Source of the DNA: a virus
DNA length: 27,161 nt
Strand: one strand, 5' to 3'
Virus record (IMG/VR): IMGVR_UViG_3300027708_000254
Coordinates: 1 to 27,161 of that record
This document shows positions 13,980 to 26,881 of the stretch, piece after piece; position 1 is the first letter of the stretch; the number at the start of each line of letters is the position of its first letter. The position numbers and the translations under genes were made by a program. The notes under the pieces are model-generated. The model had not been told where the DNA came from. It did not search any database and worked only from the letters and a program-made list of their open reading frames with translations.

Positions 13980-15434
13980 TTAAAAGTCATCCGATTCGCC
14001 GGGCATTTTATTCAACAATTCGCGTAATTTACTACTTTCAACTTGGGCAGTTACTTTTGCAACCGGCTTTCCTTGGCTTGGATCTGTAGGTATTTCTGCA
14101 CTAGTTACTGTGGTTTTTTGCTTGAGGCTATCGATAAAACTACTGCCCGTACTGCGCATAGCCACTTGAGTATCATCCTCTAAACAGTCTGTAATACGCA
14201 GGGTATCCACATTGAAATCCAAGTCAATTTTCATGCCTACTCCGCTGGAACTACGTGTTTTCATTAGCTGGATTTGATAGCGTCCACGTTCACGCATGGC
14301 ACGACTTGTAAAGATACCAAACACGTTATCCGCTGTCTGGATCTTACTCAATCCGCCCGATATGTGGCTGTGATCAAACTCTACTTCTTCAACTGCTCCG
14401 CGATTTAACTGTGCGGCCGTTACAAATACACAGTTCTTTTCTACCGCCAAATTACGTAATTCTTCACTTACATACTTGTCCTTAACAAACAAGTTTTCAG
14501 CACTAATTTTCTTACTTAAGGGCATTAACAAGTCCATGTAGTCAACTAACAGTACGTCAACTTTACGACCCATCTTAATTTCATACTCTTTCAAATACGC
14601 ACGAATATCGTTGGCTGTTTTACCGCTGGGCATATACTTGACTTGTAACTGTCCGGATTTCTTACCAATCATTTTAACTTTCATTTCAACATCATCGATG
14701 TTCTTGAAAATCTCTCTAGTAGGTATTCCAGTCACCATGGCATCCACACGCATACTAACAAGTTCTTCACTCAACTCAAGTGTAAGATAGATTACATTGA
14801 GTCCAGCCAATGCATAGTTCACTCCGAGATTAGCCAAGAATAACGATTTACCAGCACCGGAGCCACCAGCCCAAATATTAAGCTCACCACGGTTGAATCC
14901 TCCAAATAACTTGTCATCAACGTTTTTCCAACCTGTCGAAATTTGTCCATTTTTATCTTTAATAGCCATCAATCGAGCTCGAGGATCTTTAAAATAATCA
15001 GTACCCATGTCACGCTGTAGGCCCACTTGTACCGCCTGTTTGATCTTTTCTTCCACAGGACCATACTCACCTTTTTCCAGTAAGTCTGCACTTTCTAAAA
15101 TAGCACGTTCAAGACCTTTGTGTCGAATAAATGTTTCAAAGTCATTCATCAGCCATTCAAAATGTTCTTCACGCAAATCAGTGGCGGCCTTTAATGTGCT
15201 ACCAGTTGCCGCATTAATAATGTCAGGGGTAGGTAATACATTGTTATCACTTACATAGGCAGTTAAAAATTCAGCCGCTTCTTGTAATCGACGATCAAAT
15301 AGTTTACTATCAAAAATACTTTGGCAACGCACAAAAGTACCTGCATCTGCCAGCATCATTTCTAAATATACACGCTGAATATCATATCCATAATCAACGT
15401 TCTGTCTTGCTTTATTTTCTTGTTTTTCACTCAT
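13980..15434 (-). CDS. 41: T4 gp41-type replicative DNA helicase, 484 aa
   Basis: A DnaB-family hexameric helicase that unwinds DNA at the replication fork together with primase gp61. Residues ~1-140 are the N-terminal domain and ~160-440 the RecA-like core. Walker A is GGSGAGKS (190-197), Walker B is VDVLLVDYMDL (292-302), and the DnaB-type motif TAAQLNRGA and a conserved basic region (SRAMRERGRYQIQLMKTRSS) follow. The C-terminal tail (KLRELLNKMPGESDDF) is acidic and is a likely contact point for partners. The length is close to T4 gp41 (475 aa). It follows the carbamoyltransferase by 15 bases and has its own TATAAT-like box directly before the ATG. Confidence 0.95.
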   Translation of the reverse strand: MSEKQENKARQNVDYGYDIQRVYLEMMLADAGTFVRCQSIFDSKLFDRRLQEAAEFLTAYVSDNNVLPTPDIINAATGSTLKAATDLREEHFEWLMNDFETFIRHKGLERAILESADLLEKGEYGPVEEKIKQAVQVGLQRDMGTDYFKDPRARLMAIKDKNGQISTGWKNVDDKLFGGFNRGELNIWAGGSGAGKSLFLANLGVNYALAGLNVIYLTLELSEELVSMRVDAMVTGIPTREIFKNIDDVEMKVKMIGKKSGQLQVKYMPSGKTANDIRAYLKEYEIKMGRKVDVLLVDYMDLLMPLSKKISAENLFVKDKYVSEELRNLAVEKNCVFVTAAQLNRGAVEEVEFDHSHISGGLSKIQTADNVFGIFTSRAMRERGRYQIQLMKTRSSSGVGMKIDLDFNVDTLRITDCLEDDTQVAMRSTGSSFIDSLKQKTTVTSAEIPTDPSQGKPVAKVTAQVESSKLRELLNKMPGESDDF

Positions 15435-15449: not shown

Positions 15450-16922
15450 CTAGTTAAACACTTTAACACCGTATTGATGTTCAAAGTTTTTTGCATCTGC
15501 ATGATCATTAACCATGGGCTTACCCTTGATGTTTAGACTGGTGTTTAGCAATATAGGACATCCAGTTTCTTTATACCATAATTCTAAGAGCTTTCTAAAT
15601 GGGCTTCCATCGTTTGGTACAGTTTGTACACGTGAAGTTCCATCACGATGAATGATAGCAGGATAAAGCTGAGGATGCCTACAACGAGCGACCACTTGCA
15701 TATACCTACTAGTATTCCAACGATGAGGCATATCAAAATACATGTCAGTAAGTTCTTCGAGTATTGCTGGAGCAAAGGGTCTAAACTCTTGTCGTTGTTT
15801 GATTGCATTTACCTTGTCCTTTATTTCTGCGCCGCGTGGGTCTGCCAATAAACTTCTGTTACCTAGTGCTCGTGGACCAAACTCTGCCTTGCCACGAGCT
15901 ATACCACATATTTTATTTTGTGTAATATATTCTACAATTTCTTCATTACTAGCACGATACCCCATGTCATACCCTAAGAAATTATTGGACCAATCTGTCG
16001 AGTCTTTCCACTTAGGATGGTTTGCTAATACTGCACCTATGGCGCTACCTGCATCTCCGGGATTGGGATAAATCCACGTGTTGTCAAAATAATCACCAGT
16101 GAATCTATTAGCTAGACAATTCAATGCACACCCGCCCATTAAGACTAAATTATCGCTGTCTACCATTAGTCTTGCTTTGACTAGAATATCATCAAGCCAA
16201 TCTTCATACAATCGTTGTACCGCGGCCGCTATATCAAAACTATCTTTTATAATTAAATCAGGCGCCCAGTCCATACATCCTCTATGAAGATTTTTTTTCA
16301 TTTTAAAACTATCAAGATGTCCTTTAAAAAAATCTTCATAAATTCTCTGTATATGCTTATTAGGATCACCATATGCGGCCATGCCCATTAAGATATATTC
16401 GTCTTCGTTAGGTTTCAATCCCACTCGCTGTGTCATAGCACTATAGAATAATCCCATGCTATATGGGTAGCATTTACTAAATCGTTTCTTAAGATTAGTT
16501 CCTTTTCCTTCCCAAATAGTAAATGTTTCAAACTCGCCGATCGCATCTATAACTAATATACAGGCGTCATCAAATCCACTGGTATAATATCCTGTGGCCG
16601 CATGACTTAAATGATGATCCACATACGTAATTGGGGCGGTGATTTCGTATCTAGCCATATAAATTTCAATGTTGTTATCTCGATATTTCCATCCTTGTCC
16701 TGCAATTAATTGTCGTAATGTTTTTTTGAACGGTTTTTCATACCAATAAATCTTATCAGGATATCCAAATTGCTTTGCGGCCGCTACTATTTCCTTACAT
16801 AAATCTCTATCATTCTTTATGCCACTATAACGTTCGCTGTGACTAGCAAATACTAGCTTTCCGTCAACAAACACAGCTATTGCCGCATCGTGACTGTTGG
16901 CGCTTATTCCCCAGCCGATCAT
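15450..16922 (-). CDS. NodU/CmcH-type O-carbamoyltransferase, 490 aa
   Basis: This family moves a carbamoyl group from carbamoyl phosphate to a hydroxyl, through an adenylated intermediate, on sugars, antibiotics or other small molecules. The N-terminal Kae1-like domain shows GISANSHDAAIAVF, the metal-site stretch DHHLSHA (102-108) and GGCALNCLAN (263-272). The C-terminal domain shows GKAEFGPRALGNRS (344-357), FRPFAPAILEE and the ending NTSLNIKGKPMV. The length is shorter than typical cellular members (~550-600 aa), with a trimmed C-terminus. It lies between primase and helicase genes, overlapping the 37-aa gene by an ATGA. The substrate is unknown; a nucleotide, DNA base or glycan is possible. 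Related genes occur in other marine T4-like phages. Confidence 0.9.
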   Translation of the reverse strand: MIGWGISANSHDAAIAVFVDGKLVFASHSERYSGIKNDRDLCKEIVAAAKQFGYPDKIYWYEKPFKKTLRQLIAGQGWKYRDNNIEIYMARYEITAPITYVDHHLSHAATGYYTSGFDDACILVIDAIGEFETFTIWEGKGTNLKKRFSKCYPYSMGLFYSAMTQRVGLKPNEDEYILMGMAAYGDPNKHIQRIYEDFFKGHLDSFKMKKNLHRGCMDWAPDLIIKDSFDIAAAVQRLYEDWLDDILVKARLMVDSDNLVLMGGCALNCLANRFTGDYFDNTWIYPNPGDAGSAIGAVLANHPKWKDSTDWSNNFLGYDMGYRASNEEIVEYITQNKICGIARGKAEFGPRALGNRSLLADPRGAEIKDKVNAIKQRQEFRPFAPAILEELTDMYFDMPHRWNTSRYMQVVARCRHPQLYPAIIHRDGTSRVQTVPNDGSPFRKLLELWYKETGCPILLNTSLNIKGKPMVNDHADAKNFEHQYGVKVFN

Positions 16923-17032
16923 TTATAGATAAACGGATCACGTTTCCGTAATTCTTCCAAACGTTTTTTAAACGCTCTATGCGCTTGCCATTTAGACAAA
17001 GGCCATAACAAGAATTCAATCAATTTTTTCAT
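16919..17032 (-). CDS. Conserved-looking small basic protein, 37 aa
   Basis: A short frame from the ATG at 17032-17030 to TGA at 16921-16919. The product starts MKKLIEFLLWPLSKWQAHRA and ends RLEELRKRDPFIYK, giving an amphipathic N-terminal helix and a strongly basic second half. It overlaps the primase gene by 17 bases and the carbamoyltransferase start by ATGA, so it fills the gap exactly and is probably translated by coupling. I have the impression that similar ~40-aa peptides ending in DPFIY-like sequence lie near replication genes in other marine phages, but I cannot check this here. The function is unknown; a partner of primase or helicase is one guess. Confidence 0.7.
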   Translation of the reverse strand: MKKLIEFLLWPLSKWQAHRAFKKRLEELRKRDPFIYK

Positions 17033-18026
17033 TTACTTCCTTGAACCATTTCTTGGCTTTCAATTGTATTTTAAGTGGATTAGCTTCTTTGGCTTGAACT
17101 ATTTTATATAGTGTAGTTAGCCTTCCTAATTTGATGATTGCATCATTCACATCTTTAACATCATCGGGCCAGTCGGGCATACTAACACTCCACCCATAAT
17201 CTAATGCTTGCTCTAATGTTAACAATCCAGCTTTATCTCTATCTGGAACTAGCACGATTTCTTTATTTAATTGCTTGAGCAACCAGTTTTGGCTGTCCTT
17301 AATCTCAGCACCAAGTAAAGCACATCCGTCAATACTTATCGCATCAAACGGGCCTTCGCAAACAATTACGAACTGTCTATTATTATTTTGTGCATCTAAA
17401 TTAAACACATAACCAGGTTGCTGTTCGCTTAGATACTTAGGTTTAGCATCACTAAAAGCACGGGCAGTCCAACCTACAATTTCACCTTTGTATAAAAACG
17501 GAATAATAAGTCTATTATTAAATCCCGTTCTAGGACACCAGTAAAACGGATAACTCCACGGATCAATTTTTCTATCAACCAAGTATGCGTATGCTTCAGT
17601 AAACTTTGTTGGAACTGCATGATCACCGTCTGGAAGTTTTAAAAACGTATCTAAATCATTAAAACTCAAAGAATCTATTGGCAATGCTCGTGCTTCAAAA
17701 GTTGGAACTATACTACGTACTTCGGTATTAGAGTCCTCGTTTAATTTTAAAGCTTCTAATCTTAATTGCCCAATAGTATCATCGCCCATGCCTAGATCTC
17801 GCATGAACTTGTTCATCTTTTGACTGATTAGTCGGCCGGGTTGCCAACTGGCTTTGAATCCGCAATTGAAACAATGATAGCTAACTGCATCGCCTGCGTT
17901 GAATATAAGTCCGCCACGTTGGCGTTTATCATCACAGCACACAGCGTTAAAACTAATCCAACCACTAGGAGTTTGCTTCCGTTTTGCAGGAAGATAGCTG
18001 TTGATAGTGTCCGTGATTATACTCAT
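17016..18026 (-). CDS. 61: T4 gp61-type DNA primase, 336 aa
   Basis: Makes RNA primers for lagging-strand synthesis in complex with gp41. The N-terminal zinc-binding domain has C30, C31, C52 and C55 (FNAVCCDDKRQRGG, HCFNCGF). The TOPRIM domain follows, with acidic residues E224 in VIVCEGPFDAISIDGC and D262/D264 in IVLVPDRDKAG. The length matches T4 gp61 (342 aa). It is the first gene of the primase - 37 aa - carbamoyltransferase - helicase series and has a sigma70-like promoter seven bases before the ATG. Confidence 0.93.
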   Translation of the reverse strand: MSIITDTINSYLPAKRKQTPSGWISFNAVCCDDKRQRGGLIFNAGDAVSYHCFNCGFKASWQPGRLISQKMNKFMRDLGMGDDTIGQLRLEALKLNEDSNTEVRSIVPTFEARALPIDSLSFNDLDTFLKLPDGDHAVPTKFTEAYAYLVDRKIDPWSYPFYWCPRTGFNNRLIIPFLYKGEIVGWTARAFSDAKPKYLSEQQPGYVFNLDAQNNNRQFVIVCEGPFDAISIDGCALLGAEIKDSQNWLLKQLNKEIVLVPDRDKAGLLTLEQALDYGWSVSMPDWPDDVKDVNDAIIKLGRLTTLYKIVQAKEANPLKIQLKAKKWFKEVNEKID

Positions 18027-18908: not shown

Positions 18909-18915
18909 TATTTAT
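18909..18915 (-). promoter_or_regulatory. T4-type late promoter ATAAATA (minus strand)
   Basis: On the minus strand CCATAAATATAG lies 22 bases before the ATG at 18887. Its first bases are the start codon of the divergent plus-strand gene. Confidence 0.65.
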
Positions 18916-19288
18916 GGCAAAACTAAGAGATAACATAGAACAAAAACTACCCTTTATCAGTGTGTTAAACTACGGCGAATTGGAATACATTGGGATTATC
19001 ATAAATCAGGATCAATATGTAACCAGCTTCTACGACCTTAATGCCATTAAAACATTAGAAGAGCGTGAGATATTTTTAGACATAGGCGAAACTTGGTGGT
19101 GGGAAAGCAACCGTCAATTTCCTATAAACATATTTTGCAGGGAACAAATACAACCGTTTCACTATGCTATCAAAACATTCAACAGCAAAGATGCTCGTGT
19201 AGTACTTGGCCCAGTTGTTAACTTGATGAATTTAACTATGAAACGTGTTAAACGTAAAAGTGTACAACTGGTACGCAGAGTACGTTAA
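18914..19288 (+). CDS. Conserved-looking hypothetical protein, 124 aa
   Basis: I choose the ATG at 18914 over a TTG at 18857 because the late promoter TATAAATA lies between them. The protein has a compact globular look: LPFISVLNYGELEYIGIIIN, YVTSFYDLNAI, then ETWWWESNRQFPINIF with three Trp in a row, and a very basic end (KRVKRKSVQLVRRVR). The tryptophan-rich core and basic tail would suit a nucleic-acid or virion protein, but I do not recognise the family. Its stop shares the palindrome TTAA (19285-19288) with the stop of the convergent mini-DnaE gene. Confidence 0.75.
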   Translation: MAKLRDNIEQKLPFISVLNYGELEYIGIIINQDQYVTSFYDLNAIKTLEEREIFLDIGETWWWESNRQFPINIFCREQIQPFHYAIKTFNSKDARVVLGPVVNLMNLTMKRVKRKSVQLVRRVR

Positions 19289-19863
19289 GTATACTCGTAA
19301 CTGATACTTTCACATATCAAATTCATCTGTACCACAATAGCCATAGCATAGGCCACAGCATGTGCCTTCTTAAAGTAGTATTCGTCAGTCGTTGGTTTCG
19401 TCCATACTGATTGCATTACTTCTGTCCACGGTTTGCCTAACAAATGTTTCTTTGCTGGGCGTATGATTGCTAGACAAGCCGCGAGCGATTCGATATCTTT
19501 CGGTTTCATTGTCCTCAATACGTGCCCGTGCCCATTCACGTGAAATAGCAGATTCGAGAAGTCGTCCTGTTCCAGTAGATCCCATAGTGGTTCTGTCTCC
19601 ATAAGTTGTTTGAGATGCAGTTCATCACGTACACCCTTGTAGATGCTGACATTTAAGAAATCTATCTTAAAATATCCACGCTCCTCTGCGGATTTATAAT
19701 CTATAGTACTCATACCAGTAAGTGGATTGTACGGAATAGAAGTACAATACACACCGGTATTGTGCTTTTTAAAAGTTCCATTATCTTCAATGATGGCTGG
19801 AACATGCTTTAAAATGTCCAAAGCGTCTGTGCGATCCAAAAAATCTATATCAATATCAGGCAT
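19285..19863 (-). CDS. Miniature DnaE-like DNA polymerase III alpha palm protein, 192 aa
   Basis: The start MPDIDIDFLDR matches the DnaE palm motif PDxDxDF that carries the first two catalytic aspartates (E. coli D401 and D403; here D3 and D5). FKIDFLNVS at residues 65-73 matches the K-F-D-F-L motif of the third (E. coli D555; here D68). Further DnaE-like blocks follow in order: LLFHVNGHGHVLRTMKPKDI, ESLAACLAIIRPAKKH (compare the fingers block ending in ALYRPGP) and FKKAHAVAYAMAIVVQMNLI (compare the FNKSHAAAYA block). The PHP, thumb, beta-binding and OB regions are absent, and ~60 rather than ~150 residues separate the catalytic motifs. It ends the uvsW operon, overlapping the SGNH gene by eight bases. 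Whether it polymerises DNA is unknown. Confidence 0.75.
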   Translation of the reverse strand: MPDIDIDFLDRTDALDILKHVPAIIEDNGTFKKHNTGVYCTSIPYNPLTGMSTIDYKSAEERGYFKIDFLNVSIYKGVRDELHLKQLMETEPLWDLLEQDDFSNLLFHVNGHGHVLRTMKPKDIESLAACLAIIRPAKKHLLGKPWTEVMQSVWTKPTTDEYYFKKAHAVAYAMAIVVQMNLICESISYEYT

Positions 19864-20638
19864 TATTGTCTTTCCTTAATAGATATTTTATTCTATCAAA
19901 TAGCTTTTTATGTGCATCTTTCCCAGGATGAGCATTATCTGGAAAATCGGGAGAATCCCAATCTAAGTTTAATATAGTATGAATGCTATCTAACATTTTA
20001 GATTTTTCTTCAATAGTATCTATACAATTTTTAGAGTCAAACAGGTCTAAATTACAGACCCCATGCGAAACTGGCAGTTTCCTTCCAAGTATTTCTGAAT
20101 GCCAATCTTCTATTAATAATTCTATTGGGCCTACTAGTCTATTAAATTCTGTAACATCTATCGGTGCCTGGCCGCCGATGGCAATAGTTTTACAATTTAA
20201 AGTTGATATTAAATCAGAAAATTCTTGATACGCTAAAATTGTTAAATCTTTAGTTAGTTTTGATATACTAAATTTTATTTTTGAAGATGTTAATATTTCG
20301 TCCCTATCTCTAAGACTTTCAGTATGAAACCAAATTAGCCAATTAACCTTGATGTTATATTTTAGAAAATATTGAGTTGCCCGTCTAATGGTTTGTAAAT
20401 TACTGCCGCCTGTTTTTGAAAAATTAATTACATTGTATCCTTCATTGTTTAAAAGAAATTCTAAATGGGTTTCAGGAGGATCTCCTAAATGTGTAACATT
20501 TATTTCTATATTACTGGATGATAATTTTTTAATTTTTTCAATACTATTATTAATATAATTAGTAGGCGGATAATTAGGAACACCCCAACTATCCCCAATA
20601 ATTACTATAGTGCCATTTTGTTTTTTAATTTCAACCAT
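19856..20638 (-). CDS. SGNH/GDSL-type hydrolase-like protein, 260 aa
   Basis: The N-terminus TIVIIGDSWGVPNYP holds the GDS block (catalytic Ser17 with my start). FSKTGGSNLQTI supplies the Gly block, AIGGQAPID may be the third block, and the C-terminal DNAHPGKDAHKKL supplies the D-x-x-H pair. The order and spacing fit SGNH esterases, which remove acyl groups from sugars, lipids or peptidoglycan. I use the ATG at 20638, which overlaps the upstream stop (ATGGTTGA). Starts at 20647 and 20698 are also open. Base composition is more AT-rich than its neighbours, so it may be a more recent arrival. It is cytoplasmic, with no signal peptide. The substrate is unknown. Confidence 0.75.
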   Translation of the reverse strand: MVEIKKQNGTIVIIGDSWGVPNYPPTNYINNSIEKIKKLSSSNIEINVTHLGDPPETHLEFLLNNEGYNVINFSKTGGSNLQTIRRATQYFLKYNIKVNWLIWFHTESLRDRDEILTSSKIKFSISKLTKDLTILAYQEFSDLISTLNCKTIAIGGQAPIDVTEFNRLVGPIELLIEDWHSEILGRKLPVSHGVCNLDLFDSKNCIDTIEEKSKMLDSIHTILNLDWDSPDFPDNAHPGKDAHKKLFDRIKYLLRKDNNA

Positions 20639-20822
20639 CGTTGCCATTCCATTGGTCAATTTTCTTCCAACTATTCTTACCTTTAGTCGCATGTCCAATA
20701 TATACTTCGCCGGTTTCTTTATCGCATAGCATCCATTTCTGTGGACACTTAGTATAGACTTCCAAAGTTATTGGTTCTTTTAATTCTGTTGCTTCTGTAC
20801 CATCTAATAGTTTTCTTTTCAT
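20631..20822 (-). CDS. Small conserved-looking protein, 63 aa
   Basis: The start overlaps the stop of the zinc-finger-like gene (ATGA). The core TKCPQKWMLCDKETGEVYIG, HATKGKNSWKKI looks like a small beta-type fold and is a kind of sequence I associate with small conserved phage proteins near replication genes. Two cysteines are present. No function can be assigned. It overlaps the SGNH gene at its end by eight bases. Confidence 0.7.
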   Translation of the reverse strand: MKRKLLDGTEATELKEPITLEVYTKCPQKWMLCDKETGEVYIGHATKGKNSWKKIDQWNGNDG

Positions 20823-21508
20823 ATGCTAGACTCCTTAACTACTTGTCTAACTAGTTCTACATCAGCAGGTAATTTTTTAAATTTGTTCATCCAAAACTGT
20901 GGATCAATTGTAGTACCAACGGCCGCTAACTGCTCGTCACTAAATTTCGACAACATTTCTTTTCCGTTCTTACTGTTCAATATTACCCAAGGACTTATCT
21001 TACCATCACGTATATCAAACGTTGCTCTGTTTAAACTGACATATAAAAAATAATGATTCCACTGACTTTGATGTGCATCTGCCCAGGTCATCATATGTCC
21101 AATACTGCGTTGTAGTGCTGTTTCTACTGTTTCAGTACGAATCAAATCTGCAACATATTTTTCATATAATTCATCTCTGCACCAGTGATCTAATTTGACA
21201 CCGCTCTTAATAACATAATCGATAAACCTGTCAGGATAGAGTGGGTTAACATTGCTAACAAAACTGCCAAACTTAACGAAAGCATTATAGTACGGACTTT
21301 TTGCAAACTCATCATATGTTTTATTACCTTTTAGATTCTGACTCATTTTAAAAAATCGATTAAATGCATCATATCCCATGACAACATGTTTTTCAGTTTT
21401 AGCCAATGCCCTACGTTTTTGTTCGCACAGATGCACCATTAACGTTTTTTCTTTTGTAAAAGTATTTGAACAGTACTGACAAACGTATTGAGTCACTTCT
21501 AATGTCAT
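20819..21508 (-). CDS. Zinc-finger-like protein of unknown role, 229 aa
   Basis: The N-terminus YVCQYCSNTFTKEKTLMVHL, CEQKRR has C10, C13, H26 and C28, a C2HC version of a classical zinc finger (C-x2-C-x12-H-x-C) followed by basic residues. The remaining ~195 residues are helical, with a conserved look (FVKFGSFVSNVNPLYPDRFI, DYVIKSGVKLDHWCRDE). I know similar proteins from marine T4-like phages but not their function; DNA or RNA binding is a fair guess. It is coupled to the gp62-like gene upstream (ATGA) and the 63-aa gene downstream (ATGA). Confidence 0.75.
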   Translation of the reverse strand: MTLEVTQYVCQYCSNTFTKEKTLMVHLCEQKRRALAKTEKHVVMGYDAFNRFFKMSQNLKGNKTYDEFAKSPYYNAFVKFGSFVSNVNPLYPDRFIDYVIKSGVKLDHWCRDELYEKYVADLIRTETVETALQRSIGHMMTWADAHQSQWNHYFLYVSLNRATFDIRDGKISPWVILNSKNGKEMLSKFSDEQLAAVGTTIDPQFWMNKFKKLPADVELVRQVVKESSI

Positions 21509-23410: not shown

Positions 23411-24874
23411 TTATCGTTGCCAATCCGTTTTTTCAATAGTAAACGGATACTTGGCGTCCTTGTAAAATTTCTTTCTTTCTGTAAGATGCCGTTTTGCATA
23501 CTTACAGGTACTGGTTATGTCCCAGATTTGTACGAAGTCCTTGTCTTCTGCTTTTCGAATACCTCGCCCAATGCTTTGTATAACTCTGACAAAGCTCTTT
23601 CCGGGCTCAAGAAGAACCATATTAAAAATACGGGGGATATTAATACCCACAGCGGCCACACCAAAAGTCGCCACAATAATCTTGTTATCATTCGTTTTAA
23701 TTTCGTCATATTCTTCTTTTCTATCTTTGGTCTTGACCTCGCCCGAGATAAACACTGCCTCTGGTATTTCATTGATAATAAATTTGCCTGAATCAATTCT
23801 ATTCACTAGAACTAACGTATTGCCTGATTGGGATATTGTTTTAATTAGTTTGCTTAGATAAATCATTCTGTCTTCGTCTGTGACAAGATACTTTAATTCT
23901 TCAGGATAACTGCTGAATTCTTTCAAGTCCATTAACTGCACAACTTTGACATGGCAATCACTTAGTACACCTTTAGTCTGTAACTCGTGTGCTTGTATGC
24001 TGTGAATTACCGGACCAAGACTTGCAAAGATAGCTTCAAATTCGTGTGCTTCTTTGGGAACAGTTCCTGTTAGACCCCAGCGGATTGGAGCATTGCATAG
24101 GTTCTGTGTGAGCAAATTCTTCAGCACTTCTGCCTTGGCCATGTGTACTTCGTCAACAATTACAGTTTTGACTCCGTCAAGGAATTCTGCCAGTGTCACA
24201 ATGTCATGTTCTTGATTCTTTGATTTCTTATCCAATATATTAAGGCTCTGCCACGTGCAAATCGTATGCGTTTTATTGAGGTCCTTCCTGTCGCCATAAT
24301 AAACTCCTACATCTAAACCACAGTTGATAAAATCTTCTTCTGTTTGTTCTACCAAGCTCTTGTTGGGCACGATTGTGATGGTGCGACCAAAGTTTTCGCA
24401 CAGTTTACTCAGGGTTGCAGTGATAATTGTCTTACCAGCGCCAGTAGCTACTTCCTGCAAAGCCTGGGGATTTTTAAGAAAATTGTTAATTACGTCTAAT
24501 TGATAATCGCGTAACTTGATAGGCTGTCCTGCTTGCTGATGTCCGACAGGCCAGCAACGTTCTCCCCAGAAATCCTCAGTCACTTCTGGAAATGCCAGAT
24601 TGATTGGGTCTCTTAGGTCTTCCACTTCCTCTAGAGAAATTCCCATGCTATGTAGTATTTGCATGACTTTTTCTAGCTGGTTCAAATAACCGTTACCACC
24701 CAGTCCGAATAGACTTACAGTACCATCCCATCGACCCAATTTGTATGCTGGATGATATCGTGCGTAGGGTGCAAAAAATTTAAATGCGTTTGCTAATTTC
24801 TTTCGTGCGTCTAGCTCAAGACCTTCTATCTTGATGTTGACTTCATCTTTTATGACTAATTTTACAATGCCCAT
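23411..24874 (-). CDS. uvsW: UvsW-type SF2 DNA/RNA helicase, 487 aa
   Basis: In T4, UvsW unwinds R-loops and branched DNA, helping the change from origin- to recombination-dependent replication. The N-terminal ~100 residues form the small substrate-binding domain (FFAPYARYHPAYKLGRWDG). The helicase core has the Q-like RDYQLDVI, Walker A ATGAGKT (143-149), the DEVH box (241-244), WGLTGT (motif III), then LVNRIDSGKFI, ATFGVAAVGINIPR and QSIGRGIRK (motif VI). The length is close to T4 UvsW (503 aa). It overlaps the upstream unknown gene by 13 bases. Confidence 0.95.
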   Translation of the reverse strand: MGIVKLVIKDEVNIKIEGLELDARKKLANAFKFFAPYARYHPAYKLGRWDGTVSLFGLGGNGYLNQLEKVMQILHSMGISLEEVEDLRDPINLAFPEVTEDFWGERCWPVGHQQAGQPIKLRDYQLDVINNFLKNPQALQEVATGAGKTIITATLSKLCENFGRTITIVPNKSLVEQTEEDFINCGLDVGVYYGDRKDLNKTHTICTWQSLNILDKKSKNQEHDIVTLAEFLDGVKTVIVDEVHMAKAEVLKNLLTQNLCNAPIRWGLTGTVPKEAHEFEAIFASLGPVIHSIQAHELQTKGVLSDCHVKVVQLMDLKEFSSYPEELKYLVTDEDRMIYLSKLIKTISQSGNTLVLVNRIDSGKFIINEIPEAVFISGEVKTKDRKEEYDEIKTNDNKIIVATFGVAAVGINIPRIFNMVLLEPGKSFVRVIQSIGRGIRKAEDKDFVQIWDITSTCKYAKRHLTERKKFYKDAKYPFTIEKTDWQR

Positions 24875-26125: not shown

Positions 26126-26881
26126 CTAATCCTGACGTTCGATGTCGGATTCTTCGCATATTTTACCATATTGTACTTCTACAATTTTGCATGGCTCGTC
26201 GTACGGGTTATAAATTCTGTGCCAGTCATTAATTGGAATGACCAATTGACTATGTGTGGATAATTCTACTGTGGGTAACATGTATCCGCCATTCATGCGT
26301 TGTTCCACAGCACATTTACCAGAGGTAACGTGCCAAAATTCATGTCTAAATTTATGTCGTTGTAAACTTAAACTGCATCCTGGATTAACTGTAAGTTCTT
26401 TGACTTTAGTGCCATCTACTTCATGTAATACCCGATAGTAACCCCACGGACGTTCTGTTTTAGGTGCTTTCCATTCATCTAAAATCCAACTACTGCTGTT
26501 TGCTTTATTATTTCCACCAATGCCAAATTTGAATAACACATCAGGAATTAACATTTCTGGAATATTAGTGGCATTACGATCTCCACCGTTGGCAAAAATA
26601 ATTTGTGCTTTAGGGTAAAGTTGTTGTACGTTTTTAATTGCTTCAGTAGCAGTATTATCATCGTCATTAAACAAGATAACACCGTCTACCATTTTAAGAT
26701 TTTCTATAATACTGACACGTTCATGACCTGGCATAAACGCCCGGCCTTTTTTACGTTCTAACCATGCATCGCTATTAAGCCCAACAATTAACTTGTCGCC
26801 AAGTGTCTTAGCTTCTTTAAAATAAGATATATGCCCGTTGTGTAATGGATCAAATCCACCGGTAACTAATACTATTTTCAT
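26126..26881 (-). CDS. Cytidylyltransferase-like / cupin (mannose-6-phosphate isomerase-like) fusion, 251 aa
   Basis: Residues ~1-130 are a nucleotidyltransferase of the HIGH superfamily: GGFDPLHNGHISYF with HNGH (14-17), LIVGLNSDAWL, and a later GGDRNATNIPE, closest to glycerol-3-phosphate cytidylyltransferase or the RfaE C-terminal domain. Residues ~140-245 are a cupin like the C-terminal part of type II mannose-6-phosphate isomerases: ERPWGYYRVLHE, VNPGCSLSLQRHKFRHEFWH with H176, H180 and H184, and WHRIYNPYDEPCKIVEVQYG. The fusion suggests a sugar-nucleotide pathway, but no substrate can be given. It overlaps the upstream partial gene by ATGA and ends just before the uvsW promoter. Confidence 0.88.
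   Translation of the reverse strand: MKIVLVTGGFDPLHNGHISYFKEAKTLGDKLIVGLNSDAWLERKKGRAFMPGHERVSIIENLKMVDGVILFNDDDNTATEAIKNVQQLYPKAQIIFANGGDRNATNIPEMLIPDVLFKFGIGGNNKANSSSWILDEWKAPKTERPWGYYRVLHEVDGTKVKELTVNPGCSLSLQRHKFRHEFWHVTSGKCAVEQRMNGGYMLPTVELSTHSQLVIPINDWHRIYNPYDEPCKIVEVQYGKICEESDIERQD

Follow-up and report, generated by a model that had tools for sequence, protein, structure and literature searches.

A 192-residue protein of an uncultured virus is a probable C-terminal half of the split DNA polymerase III alpha known from jumbo phages

We find that a short gene in the window analysed here, a 27,161-nucleotide stretch of viral DNA (positions 1 to 27,161 of IMG/VR record IMGVR_UViG_3300027708_000254), very probably encodes the C-terminal half of a split DNA polymerase III (Pol III) alpha core, the half that would bind metal and template; the core has neither a thumb nor a PHP domain. 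We read the gene product as one subunit of a split enzyme because in relatives a separate gene encodes the first, NTP-binding half of the palm. Such a system has been described in “group 2.2” jumbo phages, from genome comparison, by Iyer, Aravind and colleagues (Viruses 2021, PMC7824862). They reported two proteins encoded by distant genes, an N-terminal one that binds NTP and a C-terminal one that binds magnesium and template, with a family B polymerase alongside and no other Pol III domains. The window gene is an independent recovery and a further member of this published system, and the idea itself is not new. A preliminary description of the window, made from its letters, had called a second polymerase of family C type unexpected, a view that the 2021 work had already overtaken.

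The gene is real and its start is well defined. It occupies 19285..19863 on the minus strand, begins with ATG and encodes 192 amino acids. Its identity as the C-terminal half (hereafter the C-half) draws on the ORF call, a profile match and structural alignment. A ribosome-binding-like site, AAGGAAAG (19870..19877, minus strand), lies 6 nt upstream of the ATG, and a stop codon closes the frame further upstream with only four codons between. Thus, MPDIDIDF is the true N-terminus, and a longer protein hidden by a mis-called start is ruled out.

The C-half belongs to a phage family that is homologous to bacterial DnaE. In PHROGs, almost the entire ORF aligns with phrog_11778, a family labelled “DNA polymerase” (E = 2.5e-65), and there are weak matches to phrog_405 and phrog_12219, which are large phage polymerase families. 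The one Pfam match is a sub-threshold hit to the finger domain (E 0.046), and a phmmer search of PDB with the single window sequence returned no significant match. A profile of 99 homologues, searched against the whole of PDB, matched Mycobacterium tuberculosis DnaE1 at E = 1.6e-4. Since a PDB match becomes significant with the family profile only, we do not rely on the Pfam match. The match to DnaE1 consists of four collinear segments: MPDIDIDF, the palm strand region, KIDFL with the finger core, and the FNKSHA block. The DnaE homology that had been proposed from the letters, including two further blocks in the right order after PDIDIDF and KIDFL, is thereby borne out.

All three catalytic aspartates are present in the C-half. 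PDIDIDF (residues 2-8; codons at 19840..19860, minus strand) carries the first two, D3 and D5, together with an invariant D7; D3 and D5 align with D401 and D403 of Escherichia coli DnaE, and residue 3 of the predicted model falls structurally at E. coli 401. KIDFL (residues 66-70; 19654..19668, minus strand) holds an invariant K66 and the third aspartate, D68, which the profile alignment places at D555 in the E. coli motif KFDFLG. We take D401, D403 and D555 to be the catalytic residues of the E. coli enzyme. The finger core, NGHGHVLRTMKPKDIESLAACLAIIRP (residues 109-137; 19453..19539, minus strand), ends in an invariant R135-P136 that aligns with the DnaE “ALFRPG” block, and FKKAHAVAYA (residues 164-173; 19345..19374, minus strand) aligns with “FNKSHAAAYA”. 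The four blocks follow one another as they do in DnaE. Across 99 aligned C-halves, D3, D5, D7, H34, P44, K66, D68, P121, R135, P136, K138, F164, K165 and H168 are invariant; the aspartates singled out in the preliminary description, D3, D5 and D68, thus never vary. Pairwise dN/dS against the close relatives with computable dS is about 0.06-0.14, which indicates purifying selection.

The predicted structure of the C-half is that of the Pol III alpha palm and fingers. The AlphaFold2 model has a mean pLDDT of 93.2, and Foldseek places Pol III alpha or PolC chains at ranks 1-13. VIA-align superposes 186-188 of the 192 residues on the best DnaE and PolC structures with Z scores of 8.5-9.1, against 3.2 or less for unrelated chains; the rmsd over the whole C-half is 5-6 A because of deletions and domain shifts. 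On solved enzymes the model covers E. coli 399-784 (2hnh), M. tuberculosis 419-808, Thermus aquaticus 461-838 and PolC 972-1299. An unrelated fold was thus not what the prediction returned.

Much of the bacterial enzyme is missing from this protein. With the domain limits that we assume for E. coli DnaE (palm 271-432 and 511-560, thumb 433-510, fingers from 561), the window protein has neither a PHP domain nor the first half of the palm; most of the thumb is gone, and nothing follows the core of the fingers. The HhH, the beta-clamp binding region and the OB/CTD are also absent, and the palm and finger segments use all 192 residues. The spacing from DxD to KIDFL is about 60 residues, compared with about 160 in M. 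tuberculosis DnaE1, and on sequence grounds the difference is in the range of a lost thumb. The fingers are shortened, and no YQEQ block is apparent when the sequence is inspected. The preliminary description had correctly listed the PHP, thumb and beta-binding parts as missing but overlooked the first half of the palm with its GS motif. In Pol-beta-like enzymes, this motif binds the triphosphate of the dNTP. Therefore, the window ORF, which has the three palm aspartates but no complete one-chain palm with a GS motif, cannot form a complete active site alone. This disposes of the earlier suggestion that it might be a minimal polymerase by itself.

The missing half of the palm is encoded elsewhere in related phages. 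We searched ten complete jumbo phages that carry the C-half with the Pfam palm model PF07733. Each of the ten has one match above the cut-off, in a separate short ORF (the N-half) of about 170 amino acids; those inspected measure 169-213 amino acids from stop to stop. Most inspected N-halves end in ...GRGSSVASYVLxLIGxHxVDSxxYxLDxxEFL(K/R/N), a stretch that corresponds in DnaE to the sequence directly before NPERVSMPDIDIDF. These proteins form the family phrog_11127, which the N-halves of the relatives match at E 6e-37 to 2e-50. In 59 aligned N-halves, G134, GRGSS (136-140) and S143 are invariant. In the relatives, the N-half gene lies tens of kb or more from the C-half gene.

The two halves abut on solved Pol III structures. 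An AlphaFold2 model of the N-half from a close relative (270 kb) has a pLDDT of 90.5, finds good matches only to Pol III alpha, and covers E. coli 271-393, M. tuberculosis 304-413, T. aquaticus 291-455 and PolC 818-964. The N-half sequence profile ends at E. coli residue 392-393. The two models do not overlap and leave a gap of about six residues. A Pol-beta-like nucleotidyltransferase palm is complete only with both proteins, GRGSS coming from the N-half and DIDID and KID from the C-half.

The halves occur together with striking regularity. A list that covers 60 of the 63 phage records with a C-half shares 59 of these with the 60 phage records listed for the N-half. The exceptions are a 109-kb record listed with the C-half only and Stenotrophomonas phage RAS14, listed with the N-half (three C-half records stand outside the list). 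Both of the window's largest relatives, which measure 270 and 223 kb and have C-halves 77% and 72% identical, carry the N-half. Ten of the 12 long IMG/VR relatives lack it, and in one relative (G012) the weak match in the N-half search was its C-half. We regard these ten as fragments, not counter-examples, because they are short and also lack a family B polymerase. The 27-kb window is itself a fragment of an uncultured virus and holds no N-half, so the partner is established for the relatives only.

A family B polymerase co-exists with the split enzyme, as the preliminary description had supposed. This is shown in relatives: all ten complete jumbo phages and both large relatives of the window (all 12 genomes) encode one, and no family A polymerase scored above the cut-off in the ten jumbo phages. 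None of the ORFs of the 27-kb fragment was noticed to be a family B polymerase.

The C-half family appears to be phage-specific. Homologues were found at at least 555 IMG/VR loci and in 63 phage records, from phages with very different hosts. The window protein is about 50% identical to those of the nearest cultured phages and 67-95% identical to the listed metagenomic relatives. No C-half was found on plasmids. Searches of bacterial and archaeal genomes gave three matches on MAG contigs that resemble phage contamination; a fourth, in Frankia, is short and weak. It is this scarcity outside phages that suggests phage specificity.

Gene order around the C-half is conserved. From upstream to downstream, the window carries a UvsW-like helicase (23411..24874, minus strand) at the upstream end of the conserved cluster, phrog_11279, phrog_11758, phrog_11058, the C-half, a convergent small gene of phrog_11637 (18914..19288, plus strand), a phrog_14467-like gene, a gp61-like DNA primase (17016..18026, minus strand) and a gp41-like replicative helicase (13980..15434, minus strand), the last identified by synteny with annotated relatives and by reading of its sequence. 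An SGNH-like gene and a carbamoyltransferase gene are inserted into this order. RaK2, PBECO4, PHA46, Vibrio phage 2.275.O, Paride, Phosso, Atu_ph07 and SCTP-2 likewise have the C-half, a convergent small gene and, within a few genes, a gp61-like primase and/or a gp41-like helicase; where the upstream side is annotated, it includes a DNA helicase, of uvsW type or other, at a distance of a few genes. The order is different in XacN1. The convergent gene, which overlaps the 3' end of the C-half by four bases in the window, is kept at this place in most jumbo phages examined and may have a functional link with the split polymerase. In RaK2 and Paride, about 1-3 kb separate the N-half from gp44, the clamp-loader gene; the same holds for Phosso if its AAA-ATPase is the clamp loader. 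Thus, both halves are encoded within replication clusters.

Several neighbouring genes have features of their own. Close to its N-terminus, the phrog_11058 protein (20819-21508, minus strand) weakly matches a C2H2 zinc finger; its gene is just upstream of the C-half in RaK2 and also, judged by position and a zinc-finger match, in Paride. The inserted 280-aa ORF directly upstream of the C-half (19856-20698, minus strand) has a GDSW start motif that recalls SGNH hydrolases, with no Pfam or PHROG match and no counterpart at the same place in annotated relatives. The other insertion, between the primase and helicase genes, is a NodU/Nol-like carbamoyltransferase gene (15450-16922, minus strand; Pfam E 1.6e-47). 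A further ORF (26126-26881, minus strand) reads like a cytidylyltransferase (VTGGFDPLHNGH) fused to a cupin of the mannose-6-phosphate-isomerase type, which by this reading would place sugar-nucleotide metabolism in the phage. Outside the window, a separate DnaQ-like exonuclease (PF00929; “DNA polymerase exonuclease subunit”) is encoded next to uvsW in RaK2 and related jumbo phages (L085 721-1542), and CBB has a protein like Pol III epsilon. The DnaQ-like exonuclease might proofread for the split Pol III.

We propose that the N-half and C-half associate and rebuild one Pol-beta-like palm. The N-half would grip the triphosphate of the dNTP through GRGS, and the C-half would hold a pair of Mg2+ ions together with either the template or the primer end. 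The reassembled pair could then catalyse nucleotidyl transfer by the usual two-metal mechanism. It might serve as a distributive accessory polymerase of low processivity that extends primers or fills gaps at the phage fork beside the family B replicase. This role is suggested by the lack of a thumb and of clamp-binding parts and by a neighbourhood of primase, helicase and clamp-loader genes; for the fork itself, it is the gene neighbourhood that hints at a part for the pair. At its fullest, the proposal would make the pair a functional heterodimer in replication: a family C core without a thumb, about 360 residues in size, which elongates primers or closes gaps before the family B replicase takes over. 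Such a core may have been retained from a time before the complete bacterial enzyme came together. We hold this fuller picture tentatively, at a little under even chances, and template-directed synthesis is uncertain because the thumb is missing and the fingers are shortened.

The main rival to a template-copying pair is a template-independent transferase. In that case, the two halves would make up a Pol-beta superfamily nucleotidyltransferase that is active but no longer template-directed, because the thumb and much of the fingers are gone; it might serve, for example, in end-tailing or end repair. The short stretch between DxD and KIDFL fits this, as does the invariance of the catalytic and GS motifs, by which the chemistry would be kept, and thumb-less transferases with a Pol-beta fold are common. 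However, the DnaE finger blocks (R135-P136, K138 and FKKxH) are kept as well, and both genes lie in replication clusters with primase, helicase and clamp loader, not beside RNA ligases. We therefore consider a transferase unlikely, if a serious competitor.

The suggestion that the C-half is a non-catalytic decoy that binds parts of the host replisome, also made in the preliminary description, is highly improbable. Phages do encode replisome inhibitors, and the C-half does resemble the host replicase. However, the metal-binding aspartates are invariant in 99 sequences and GRGSS is invariant in the partner, and on this invariance we reject the decoy. Furthermore, the parts of DnaE that touch the clamp, tau and epsilon are absent, and the C-half is conserved across phages of very different hosts. 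Least plausible of all, with next to no weight, is that the ORF is what remains of a complete, host-derived DnaE in decay: it has a fifth of the length of DnaE, but its start point, length and motifs are the same in hundreds of diverse phages, and we reject decay on the selection estimates given above and the presence of the complementary partner in all complete genomes tested.

The split polymerase, as we read it, can be set against enzymes already known. Bacterial Pol III alpha shares with it the catalytic palm strands, the three aspartates, the lysine before the third aspartate, the RP and FxKxH finger blocks and the fold of palm and fingers. The phage pair differs in having about 360 residues over two proteins in place of 900-1200 in one, and in lacking PHP, thumb, HhH, beta-clamp motif, OB and tau-binding domain. 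Cyanobacteria also encode Pol III alpha in two genes, as full-size pieces joined by a split intein, whereas we see no room for inteins in the phage halves, since both are polymerase sequence up to the split. From the system of PMC7824862 nothing essential differs: the window ORF starts at the DxD palm strand and has the catalytic aspartates and reduced fingers, although this fragment contains neither a partner nor a family B gene. Before that, the CBB genome paper described a single truncated alpha subunit of 172 amino acids (PMC5259590), which by position is the N-half. PMC9123017 reports that the marine jumbo phage cluster PGC_A is distinguished by PF07733 in 51.9% of its members; this protein may be the N-half, which the passages on it do not describe as part of a split enzyme. 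We found no laboratory or biochemical work on the split enzyme in the openly accessible literature searched.

To PMC7824862 we add where exactly the split falls on solved structures, structure predictions for the two halves, the residues that stay invariant in large sets, estimates of selection, co-occurrence counted by record, and the conservation of gene order. The number of IMG/VR loci with a C-half shows that uncultured viruses commonly have the split arrangement. Should the pair prove active, we would know of no smaller family C polymerase; its active site would be divided between two separately encoded proteins, and it would show which parts of bacterial Pol III the chemistry alone needs. 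It would also open to test the proposal of PMC7824862 that replication parts of an early, modular kind survive in jumbo phages, and would mean that family B and family C polymerases are maintained together in one virus lineage. If the pair is indeed a heterodimeric replicative enzyme, a mixed replisome of bacterial and eukaryote type would exist within one virus.
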